From Bacteroidia bacterium (GTDB lineage Bacteria > Bacteroidota > Bacteroidia > Cytophagales > Cyclobacteriaceae): 64,000 nucleotides of DNA. The DNA lies in NCBI GenBank assembly GCA_030425425.1, contig JAUIAO010000015.1, forward strand, positions 1 to 64,000. The letters are read 5' to 3'. Positions 40,500 through 42,909 of this stretch are shown piece after piece. Positions within the stretch are counted from its first letter, which is position 1. Each line of letters starts with the position of its first letter. Below the pieces are notes generated by a model. It worked only from the letters and a program-made list of their open reading frames with translations, did not search any database and was not told the DNA's origin. The translations under genes and the position numbers were made by a program.

Positions 40500-40901
40500 T
40501 CAGGCCACTCGCTGCAATTCCTGCTCCTCCTCCATCATTATATAATCAAAATTGAGTCCAAGAATATCTTCATAATCCTCCCCAGTCTCTAACATATCCT
40601 CATCATCTTCTTCAAAGTGCCAGTTAATGACTACCTCCGCGCCGCTGATTTCCAGTTTCTTCAGTGTCCGAAACATGTCAAATAAACACTTGCTGCTGCT
40701 GGTATTGAAGTAATCCAACGCCACGTCTACTTCTATCCTATTATTTGTAGCAAATAGTCTCCTGATCTTCTCAATCAGAGGAAAATAAAAGTTAATCGCA
40801 CTCTCGGGTGTGGACTTGCCTCTTAGCTCGATTCTTCCTATTTCTGAATCGAGCTGAACAAAAGGCGTTGTTTTAGTTGGTTCAATTCTCAGGTCAATCA
40901 T
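40500..40901 (-). CDS. SiaC/DUF1987-family phosphoprotein
   Basis: The 133-residue protein fits the DUF1987/SiaC family: IEPTKTTPFVQLDSEIGRIELRGKSTPES-like start, YFPLIEKI, LDYFNTSSSKCLFDMFRTL (the serine-rich NTSSSK segment is the expected phosphorylation site) and INWHFEEDDEDMLETGEDYE. In Pseudomonas, SiaC is switched by the kinase SiaB and the PP2C phosphatase SiaA and controls a diguanylate cyclase. Here a PP2C phosphatase lies on the other side of a divergent gap. It follows the STAS-like gene by eight bases. Confidence 0.82.
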   Translation of the reverse strand: MIDLRIEPTKTTPFVQLDSEIGRIELRGKSTPESAINFYFPLIEKIRRLFATNNRIEVDVALDYFNTSSSKCLFDMFRTLKKLEISGAEVVINWHFEEDDEDMLETGEDYEDILGLNFDYIMMEEEQELQRVA

Positions 40902-40909
40902 GATGATTT

Positions 40910-41335
40910 TTATTCTGCGTTTACAGCTTCCTCCACTGTTTCAAAATATTCAATTTTAAGCTTAGCCAGCAATTCTTTCGGGTATTTGGCTAAAAGTGGT
41001 TTACGCGCTGCTTCTACAGACTTTCTGAAATATTCCAACTTCGGCAATACCTTATAGTGCTTGGTGAGACCGTAGTTAATTACCTCAGTTTTCCACTCTG
41101 TAAAATACCATTTCATCGAAGGCTGATGAAAGGTTCTGAGGTTCGATTTGTCAAATACGAATTTGGTATACTCACCCTCCTTGATCTCGTCTGAAAGCAT
41201 TTCAAAAATCTGCTTGAACTTACCGATAGGTACATAATCAGCGGTCAATACACAGCCAATCATTTTCTTCTCTTCATTGACTAGCCCTTTGGCATATTCG
41301 TTCACAAATATTTCTGTAAATCCTAAATTTTCCAT
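40910..41335 (-). CDS. STAS/SpoIIAA-like protein
   Basis: The 141-residue protein has an alternating beta-alpha pattern with YTKFVFDKSNLRTFHQPSMKW and WKTEVINYGLTKHYKVLPKL followed by EYFRKSVEAARK. This looks like SpoIIAA-like STAS proteins in which the WK and EYFRKSVEA segments are conserved. Such proteins act in partner-switching or lipid sensing. It lies upstream of the SiaC-type gene on the same strand and is divergent from the roadblock-like and phosphatase genes. The domain call is by eye and moderate. Confidence 0.6.
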   Translation of the reverse strand: MENLGFTEIFVNEYAKGLVNEEKKMIGCVLTADYVPIGKFKQIFEMLSDEIKEGEYTKFVFDKSNLRTFHQPSMKWYFTEWKTEVINYGLTKHYKVLPKLEYFRKSVEAARKPLLAKYPKELLAKLKIEYFETVEEAVNAE

Positions 41336-41399
41336 TTTGATGGGTTGGTTAAAAGTTCCACGCTAGATATACCAATTACCACCCTCAATTGTTTTCATC

Positions 41400-41432
41400 T
41401 TGTTTAACTTTTTAAAATTTTTAATTAAACAA
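41400..41432. promoter_or_regulatory. Inverted repeat in divergent signalling promoter region
   Basis: TTGTTTAA (41400-41407) and TTAAACAA (41425-41432) are perfect inverted arms 17 bp apart in the 142-bp gap between the STAS-like gene (minus) and the roadblock-like gene (plus). The spacing of one to three helical turns and the divergent position suggest an operator or shared regulatory site. Confidence 0.45.
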
Positions 41433-41477
41433 AACATTTTCATTCCATTCAGGCTTATTCTCAAATAAAACATATAA

Positions 41478-41846
41478 ATGATGAATGAGGAACTGGAAGA
41501 ATTATTGGAAAAACTTTTGGGAGATTACTCCGATGCAATCGGAATAGCCTTTCAAAGCCTAGAACTGCCTATTGCGAGTCACTACGGTGAGAAAACTGAT
41601 ATATTAGAAAAATACAAAGACATCCCAATGATGTCAATTGACGAATCGTTTAACACTTCGTTTAATTTCATCATCACTGAAGGAGGAACAATAGTGATTT
41701 TTTTTATTAAAAATCTGCATTTCATTTCTGTTTTTGTCAAAAATGAAATGCCCAACAAAGAACTGGCATTAAGGATATACCAGAAATACGCACCGAAATT
41801 CGAACAACTGATCAACAGACTATATGAAGCCGAAAAAATTCATTAA
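41478..41846 (+). CDS. Roadblock/LC7-like small protein
   Basis: The 122-residue protein has the pattern of a roadblock-like fold: an N-terminal helix (MNEELEELLEKLLGDYSDAIGI), two strands (AFQSLELPIASHYG), a helix and a strand pair (FNFIITEGGTIVIFFIKNLH, FISVFVKNEM), and a final helix. Such proteins sense or scaffold small GTPases or kinases. It overlaps the next gene, a phosphatase, by 23 bases, so the two are translated together. The identification is tentative. Confidence 0.55.
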   Translation: MMNEELEELLEKLLGDYSDAIGIAFQSLELPIASHYGEKTDILEKYKDIPMMSIDESFNTSFNFIITEGGTIVIFFIKNLHFISVFVKNEMPNKELALRIYQKYAPKFEQLINRLYEAEKIH

Positions 41847-42909
41847 TCAACTCAACCAAAATTTCGAGGAGATACTTAGCCTTGGATTTATTTCCGAAGG
41901 GGAACTCAAGGAATTCAGCAACTTTTCGACCATAGATTCTGAACATCTCGAAGGTATCGTCATGCGGCTATATTTCCTCACCCTCGATCCGGAAAAAGAC
42001 ATCAAATTTTTCATCAACCAATATGAAGAAAATAGGTATTTGTATTTGGTAAAAATCACCGAAGAAGTCTGGCTATTTGTCATGTGCAGTGATTCGAATT
42101 TTGCTAAACTTCATTTTTTCATCAAGTACATGTTGTCTGATGTGGTAATAGACTTTGACGATTCTGAACCACAAGACGAAGAAAAATTGACTGTGGAGCA
42201 AGAAAAGCTATTATCGGCTCAGAGGATACAACAAATGTTGCTTCCGGATCTGGACAAACAGATACCTTCTTTTAAAACACGTCAGCTACATTACAAGCCT
42301 AAAGATATTGTTGGAGGAGATTTTTATTGGGCAAAAAAAACCAAAACACATGAATGGATAGTCGTAGGAGATTGTACCGGCCATTCGGTAGAAGGTGCTC
42401 TGGGATCGGTCAGCGTGATGTCCATACTCAATGAGGTTTTTTACAGTAACATGAACCCTCACCACTTGATTAAAGCACTTCATGAAAGTCTGAATAACAT
42501 GCAGAGCCAGGATCTGGTGGACGGTTACGGTATCGGAGTAGAACTGATGGTGATGAAATATGAACCTAAAACCAAAACGCTAAAATATAGTAGTAACGGG
42601 CTCACCTTGTACCTGATCGATGATCGTGTGCGTCATTTCAAAACTAAAAAATCCTCTTTCGATCCCGATAGAGTCATTAAGTATATCCGTTCAAGAACCA
42701 TACACCTTGATGAAAACCGGGCTGTATTCACTCATTCAGACGGGATTCCTGACCAACTAAATTCAGAAGGCAAGAAACTGAAAACAGCTAAACTCAGAAG
42801 GACTCTTGGCGAAGGTGGTGATGGAAATAGCATTCGTCAGCTCTTTGATGATTGGAAAAACGAAGAAATTCAAACTGATGATGTGGTGAGTATCTACCTG
42901 AAACCATAA
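41824..42909 (+). CDS. SpoIIE-type PP2C protein phosphatase
   Basis: The 361-residue protein has a 115-residue N-terminal domain of unknown fold and a linker helix (EEKLTVEQEKLLSAQRIQQM). A complete PP2C/SpoIIE domain follows, with metal-binding acids visible in DIVGGDFYWAKK, GDCTGHSVEGALGS, FTHSDGIPDQ and QTDDVVSIYLKP. It should remove phosphate from serine on a STAS- or SiaC-type partner. The N-terminal domain resembles the roadblock-like protein encoded just upstream in its strand-helix pattern. It has no membrane segment. Confidence 0.85.
   Translation: MKPKKFINQLNQNFEEILSLGFISEGELKEFSNFSTIDSEHLEGIVMRLYFLTLDPEKDIKFFINQYEENRYLYLVKITEEVWLFVMCSDSNFAKLHFFIKYMLSDVVIDFDDSEPQDEEKLTVEQEKLLSAQRIQQMLLPDLDKQIPSFKTRQLHYKPKDIVGGDFYWAKKTKTHEWIVVGDCTGHSVEGALGSVSVMSILNEVFYSNMNPHHLIKALHESLNNMQSQDLVDGYGIGVELMVMKYEPKTKTLKYSSNGLTLYLIDDRVRHFKTKKSSFDPDRVIKYIRSRTIHLDENRAVFTHSDGIPDQLNSEGKKLKTAKLRRTLGEGGDGNSIRQLFDDWKNEEIQTDDVVSIYLKP

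Follow-up and report, generated by a model that had tools for sequence, protein, structure and literature searches.

A rare, conserved gene cluster sets SiaC-family and predicted STAS- and roadblock-fold proteins beside a PP2C phosphatase in a marine Bacteroidota genome

A 64,000-nucleotide stretch of a marine Bacteroidota genome (Bacteroidia bacterium, family Cyclobacteriaceae; GCA_030425425.1, contig JAUIAO010000015.1, positions 1 to 64,000; hereafter the window) carries at 40500-42909 a divergent cluster of four genes, encoding a SiaC-family protein, two proteins with predicted STAS and roadblock/LC7 folds (the STAS and roadblock proteins below) and a PP2C/SpoIIE phosphatase. The original prediction, made from the sequence alone, proposed a candidate partner-switching system here; our analysis confirms the cluster and partly supports that interpretation, as a form of the SiaC partner switch that is rare, conserved and extended by STAS and roadblock proteins. 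The open reading frames (ORFs) match the earlier description of four genes around a 142-bp divergent gap, with the minus-strand pair (SiaC, STAS) separated by 8 bp and the plus-strand pair (roadblock, PP2C) overlapping by 23 bp. As first reported, no SiaB kinase, diguanylate cyclase (SiaD) or sigma factor is seen near the cluster when the ORF list for 36-48 kb is read by eye; no MglA-like or Ras-like GTPase was recognized beside the roadblock gene in the same list, and a PHROGs search gave no match. The features, with the evidence for each, are as follows.

40500..40901, minus strand: SiaC-family phosphoprotein, 133 amino acids (aa) (PF09345, PDB SiaC 6kko, tree clade)
40701..40703, minus strand: codon of SiaC Thr67, predicted phospho-acceptor (alignment to Pseudomonas aeruginosa SiaC Thr68)
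40910..41335, minus strand: predicted STAS-fold protein, 141 aa, no Pfam family (AlphaFold2 (AF2) model, Foldseek, VIA)
41117..41119, minus strand: codon of Ser73 of the STAS protein, candidate phosphosite (33-row homologue alignment)
41336..41477, no strand: divergent intergenic region, 142 bp (ORF coordinates)
41478..41846, plus strand: predicted roadblock/LC7-fold protein, 122 aa, no Pfam family (AF2 model, Foldseek, VIA)
41824..42150, plus strand: N-terminal domain of the PP2C phosphatase, about 109 aa, rare (family and class genome searches, hhalign)
41824..42909, plus strand: PP2C/SpoIIE phosphatase, 361 aa (PF07228, 6k4e alignment, invariant aspartates)

The four genes form a real, rare and conserved unit. 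The N-terminal domain of the phosphatase is strong in 5 of 390 genomes of the family (E 1.5e-31 or better), spread over three genera, and the complete divergent set, in one gene order, is present in each of the five carriers (the window genome, G631 of the same genus, G124, G579 and G685; G denotes genomes compared, C loci elsewhere in this genome and L fetched stretches). Recurrence of the same genes in the same order in four further genomes argues that the cluster is not a chance assembly, and bears out the expectation that they would be neighbours in related genomes. The divergent gap measures 121 bp in G124, 83 bp in G579 and 101 bp in G685, and these three keep the roadblock–PP2C overlap at 4 bp, against 23 bp in the window. 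At E 0.1 the family search finds the domain in 47 of 390 genomes, the best match beyond the five strong ones standing at 1.7e-4; neither of the weaker matches inspected (G650, G800) has the four-gene cluster. A class-wide search of 395 genomes matched three, strongly only in the window's own, and G269, one of the two weak matches, was inspected and has no such cluster; a scan of a genome collection with the phosphatase N terminus confirmed nothing. The same distribution bears on the idea that phosphatase–roadblock and STAS–SiaC are two separate systems sharing only a promoter region. The pairs are transcribed apart, and both STAS and SiaC often occur where the other genes are missing (the SiaC family is present in 67 of 98 genomes of the order), but no strong N-terminal domain was found without both the roadblock gene and the STAS–SiaC pair (five of five, three genera), making this idea highly improbable.

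The SiaC of the cluster matches PF09345 with E 1.1e-35 (122 bits, cut-off 24.5) and PDB SiaC 6kko with E 1.1e-16. A Ser-rich NTSSSK site had been singled out in it; the site is present, but the acceptor should be read as Thr67, which aligns on Thr68 of Pseudomonas SiaC and is the predicted phospho-acceptor, the position being Thr in nine of ten aligned SiaCs and Ser in the other. Thr68 is phosphorylated by SiaB and dephosphorylated by SiaA (PMC7647112, partial text). Scores on the NCBIfam equivalogs fall below cut-off both for this SiaC (75.4 bits, cut-off 150) and for the phosphatase on SiaA (49.3 bits, cut-off 700), so the two are relatives, not equivalogs, of the Pseudomonas proteins.

The phosphatase matches PF07228 (E 8.3e-16) and aligns to structure 6k4e ('putative serine phosphatase', E 1.8e-9), which we take to be SiaA-PP2C. 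Residues D166, D183, D306, D352 and D353 and the motif GDCTGH are invariant in five orthologues; knowing the family, we presume these aspartates to be metal-binding, and the enzyme thus appears to keep its metal acids, as was first suggested. Its small N-terminal domain is faintly like the N termini of other PP2Cs encoded beside small roadblock-looking genes (hhalign probability 69, E 4.6e-5), whereas SiaA has about 450 residues before its PP2C domain (PMC7647112, partial text).

This genome holds ten SiaC copies and eight matches to the phosphatase. Such numbers allow cross-talk, in which the phosphatase would have its substrate at another locus (any of nine further SiaCs, or another STAS protein) and the local SiaC would serve another enzyme. 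That arrangement is very unlikely in our judgement: the local SiaC lies beside the phosphatase in all five carriers, and in G164 a SiaC gene abuts, tail to tail, a phosphatase of this kind whose N terminus is cut by the contig end. In a maximum-likelihood tree the cluster SiaC is a paralogue distinct from this genome's SiaB-linked SiaC. The tree unites the window's copy with both copies of G631 and the cluster copies of G579 and G685 in one group supported at 91/88, below the tree tool's 95/80 mark, and a separate clade (94/92) holds the SiaB- or coiled-coil-linked SiaCs of the family, including the copy at locus C103 of this genome and the second copy of G685.

Other SiaC-family arrangements were seen alongside. 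Two consecutive members without the NTSS acceptor site lie at L098:7150-8462. Four divergent SiaCs (L097:6492-9026 and L099:7551-9604) are each preceded by a protein of 145-168 aa that looks exported and has [TS]Y-x-E past its likely signal peptide, a pairing seen at these two loci. The order search also gave 38 SiaC-family matches in one 9.3-Mb genome (G047), a striking expansion.

The 141-residue protein has no Pfam family, and no STAS-type Pfam family was found for any of the 33 members of its alignment. Its AF2 model (predicted local distance difference test (pLDDT) 94, 33-row alignment) finds STAS anti-sigma antagonists and SiaC as its best PDB matches in Foldseek (4xs5, E 1.3e-3, probability 1.00), with no match at E 0.001 or better, and in VIA it aligns to RsbS (Z 12.7; 2.4 Å, 112 residues), a stressosome STAS domain (Z 12.0) and SpoIIAA (Z 11.9). 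Structure prediction and both comparisons thus favour the STAS-like guess, and we assign the protein a predicted STAS fold. A profile search of PDB sequences with the family returned no STAS protein and one unrelated row at E 0.27; profile comparison with SiaC found no link. Residue 73, close to where a helix (71-86) begins, is Ser in 30 of 33 homologues and Thr in three, and is a candidate phosphosite about where STAS switch proteins are phosphorylated, the position being compared approximately rather than by residue-on-residue mapping; T68 of SiaC and S58 of 4QTP both stand at the start of helix 2 (PMC7647112, partial text).

Around 28 other STAS loci, a PP2C gene (PF07228) lies directly upstream on the same strand, at 12-54 bp, in four; one further PP2C gene is nearby on the other strand, and one SiaB-family gene is nearby. 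(L065 is absent both from these neighbourhoods and from the 33-row alignment.) The PP2C–STAS pairing therefore recurs, and the window cluster joins it to SiaC and a roadblock protein. The arrangement recalls the RsbU–RsbV–RsbW and SpoIIE–SpoIIAA–SpoIIAB switches in its PP2C, its predicted STAS-fold protein and a Ser/Thr near a helix start; unlike them, the cluster has no RsbW-type kinase or sigma factor that we could see, and another locus of this genome, C30, pairs a STAS gene with an RsbW-like one and also has a likely GAF-PP2C gene. A rival possibility is a switch centred on the STAS protein as actual substrate and hub, with SiaC and STAS in a mixed stressosome-like complex as RsbR/RsbS, phosphorylated by an RsbW-type or other GHKL kinase and reset by the PP2C, SiaB being incidental. 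RsbS and a stressosome domain are the best VIA rows, PP2C–STAS gene pairs occur without SiaC in the four loci above, and each of the five genomes checked encodes small RsbW-like proteins (HATPase_c_2), two of them strong. The RsbS and SpoIIAA rows are, however, less than one Z unit apart, so that RsbS is not singled out; one of the two RsbW-like genes of this genome, at C30, already belongs to a gene run that includes a PF01740 STAS gene of its own and an apparent GAF-PP2C gene; and SiaC is kept beside the cluster in five of five carriers. We regard a STAS-centred switch as unlikely.

For the 122-residue protein the AF2 model (pLDDT 86, 5-row alignment) has as its best Foldseek matches in the PDB LAMTOR and other roadblock chains (E 4.9e-5, probability 1.00), the top 50 being mostly roadblock-containing chains, with a TM of 0.72 to MglB (6hjm_B). 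VIA places MglB (Z 11.9; 3.0 Å, 114 residues) in a tie with a GAF-PHY chain (Z 12.3). The roadblock-like guess is thus favoured by model and Foldseek, with a tie against a GAF-type chain in VIA, and a roadblock/LC7 fold is predicted. The curated roadblock family has no match to the protein (Pfam, E 1) or to three orthologues (E 10), and searching PDB sequences with its profile gave no credible match. Roadblock proteins are best known as partners of small GTPases. Ours shares its predicted fold with MglB and LAMTOR2/3 and differs from them in lacking a Pfam roadblock match, in having no MglA-like GTPase in sight nearby and in its pairing with a PP2C. It was found in 2 of 98 genomes of the order, strongly in the window's own and weakly in the other. 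Searches of open-licence PMC found nothing on roadblock proteins with SpoIIE/PP2C, STAS domains or partner switching. A tandem three-gene unit of roadblock-looking 124-125-aa, 102-104-aa and PP2C proteins was also seen at L137:2727-6487 (G650, same genus).

The SiaC loci most like that of the window are differently composed. We fetched 36 (L001, L003-L008, L010-L038, not counting the two entries of the window itself); seven belong to this genome and the other 29, one per genome, to 29 of the 66 other matching genomes. SiaB lies within 1.5 kb of SiaC in 25 and is fused to it in three more; outside this genome it is beside or fused to SiaC in 27 of 29, and the remaining two have a contig end (L023) or a PP2C gene (L037) in its place. 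The fusions (PF19788 and PF09345 in one frame, 321-322 aa; L011:1483-2448, L012:1516-2484 and L013:1483-2451, strand −) belong to three congeneric genomes of a different family, have PP2C upstream and a coiled-coil gene downstream, and mark SiaB and SiaC as partners in this order. A membrane coiled-coil protein is present in 13 of the 36 loci and a PP2C in nine; the STAS and roadblock proteins of the cluster are in none (within 1.5 kb). The composition therefore upholds the description of a SiaABCD variant; the different input and output proposed with it we still infer. What the cluster shares with SiaABC(D) of P. aeruginosa is a SiaC with the NTSS threonine, a PP2C and a SiaB-family kinase in the genome, adjacent in one relative; it adds the STAS and roadblock proteins and is without SiaB and SiaD. 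With the ordinary SiaB–SiaC–coiled-coil loci of the order, represented in this genome by C103, it has in common the SiaC family and, going by C103, the acceptor threonine.

Absence of SiaB, part of the original prediction, is true next to the cluster but not of the genome. SiaB-family genes (PF19788) occur in 8 of 10 genomes checked, and the window genome has homologues at C103, within a SiaB–SiaC–coiled-coil set, and at C18. In G124 a coiled-coil gene separates the cluster SiaC from the sole SiaB found (123.9 against the NCBIfam SiaB-family cut-off of 85), which lies farther out and on the other strand. The contigs of G631 and G579 stop shortly past the cluster SiaC, leaving the far side unseen. 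A SiaB search of G685 found none, and an apparent SiaB tail (by eye) precedes another SiaC there at a contig start. For the window, the simplest and most likely interpretation is a kinase supplied in trans. We had also considered that G579 and G685 lack SiaB and so use another kinase, and dropped this in view of the apparent tail at the G685 contig end and of G579 being a metagenome-assembled genome with a contig starting at SiaC. Open-licence PMC held no literature that we could find on DUF6272.

The coiled-coil proteins of ordinary loci bear on what SiaC may bind. SiaD stalk residues contacting SiaC include R80, I81, S82, D83, R84, Y85 and Q86, and SiaC Thr68 bonds to S82 and Q86 (PMC8457831, partial text). 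Among 13 coiled-coil membrane proteins encoded beside SiaC, chosen for the count by overall similarity, 12 have S-D-[RK]-L-Q and the other G-D-K-L-Q, the serine being preceded by [RK]-V in nine and by S-V in three (motif carriers: L094:6985-7542 and L091:9584-10141, strand −; also L011-L013, L017-L021, L023, L030, L038). Of 177 background ORFs from stretches of this genome, 13 contain S-D-x-x-Q and one contains the full motif; the C103 coiled-coil protein, which bears the full motif, is itself among those stretches. The match to S82-D83-R84-Y85-Q86 suggests these proteins as candidate non-cyclase SiaC targets. The likeness is to the residues given in PMC8457831 (partial text) and not from a sequence search; a profile search of PDB sequences with the coiled-coil stalk did not recover SiaD and gave no credible match. 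The one strong copy in this genome, at C103, might serve both SiaCs.

We read the cluster as the phosphatase arm of a specialized SiaC partner switch, with SiaB acting in trans and the roadblock protein gating the PP2C, a reading we hold to be slightly more probable than its negation. The analysis establishes the gene content and its conserved order, the modelled folds, the preserved catalytic and acceptor residues and a kinase homologue in the genome. Contacts, substrates, the role of the roadblock protein, signal and output would, as we infer them, be these: the PP2C would dephosphorylate SiaC at Thr67 and perhaps also the STAS protein, at candidate site Ser73; a kinase of the SiaB family, from locus C103 or C18, would re-phosphorylate SiaC; the roadblock protein would bind the phosphatase N-terminal domain and set its activity as adaptor or sensor; and dephosphorylated SiaC (and STAS) would bind an output partner encoded outside the cluster, none being recognized within it.

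Several observations weigh against this reading. No SiaB lies beside the cluster in the window or in G685, and none was found anywhere in G579. The STAS protein has homologues in 39 of 98 genomes of the order, including relatives in which no SiaC was found (G035, G050 and G091), and so has a life apart from SiaC. The cluster occurs in only two of six same-genus genomes listed. The SiaC of G124 falls outside the cluster clade, on a long branch, and a single origin of the six cluster SiaCs appears in 0% of bootstrap trees. A roadblock fold by itself gives no function, and profile comparison linked the roadblock protein neither to the phosphatase N terminus nor to the roadblock-looking neighbours of other PP2Cs.

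One relative suggests a gas input to the cluster. In G631 an H-NOX gene (PF07700, E 2e-33, YxSxR motif present) starts 6 bp after the phosphatase gene, and the second SiaC follows on the other strand 2 bp past it. The window genome encodes an H-NOX protein at C70, 48% identical to that of G631. A roadblock-like/PP2C-like pair lies at a distance of 0.5-1 kb from its gene, a SiaC gene about 6 kb away and a globin gene 7 kb away; the PP2C-like gene has no Pfam SpoIIE match at E 0.01 and may be degenerate, and the roadblock assignment there is weak. No H-NOX was found in G124, G579 or G685, the carriers of other genera, making it unlikely as a general input and at most a local one. In this genus a stand-alone H-NOX, a haem protein, might signal nitric oxide or oxygen through the roadblock adaptor to the PP2C, setting the phosphorylation of SiaC and STAS, which we think doubtful; if true, the partner switch would be gated by a roadblock protein, and H-NOX would have an output of a new kind. 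On H-NOX with PP2C/SpoIIE phosphatase partners in Bacteroidetes, open-licence PMC had nothing among the matches listed.

The wider C70 stretch (L096, G000:C70:39000-54000) was noted separately: it holds a stand-alone H-NOX, response regulators, a PAS histidine kinase and roadblock-like, PP2C-type, SiaC and globin genes, and is a possible gas-sensing switch.

SiaC proteins are numerous in these bacteria, yet the worked example that we found is that of Pseudomonas; among the open-licence PMC matches listed for SiaC partner switching in Bacteroidetes, nothing treats the present combination. Residues like the SiaC contacts of SiaD, as carried by the membrane coiled-coil proteins, may serve as a testable rule by which to pick out SiaC targets that are not diguanylate cyclases. 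The cluster itself, a compact and conserved four-protein set, lends itself to two questions: what controls the PP2C phosphatases of SiaC switches, and can roadblock proteins act as phosphatase adaptors?

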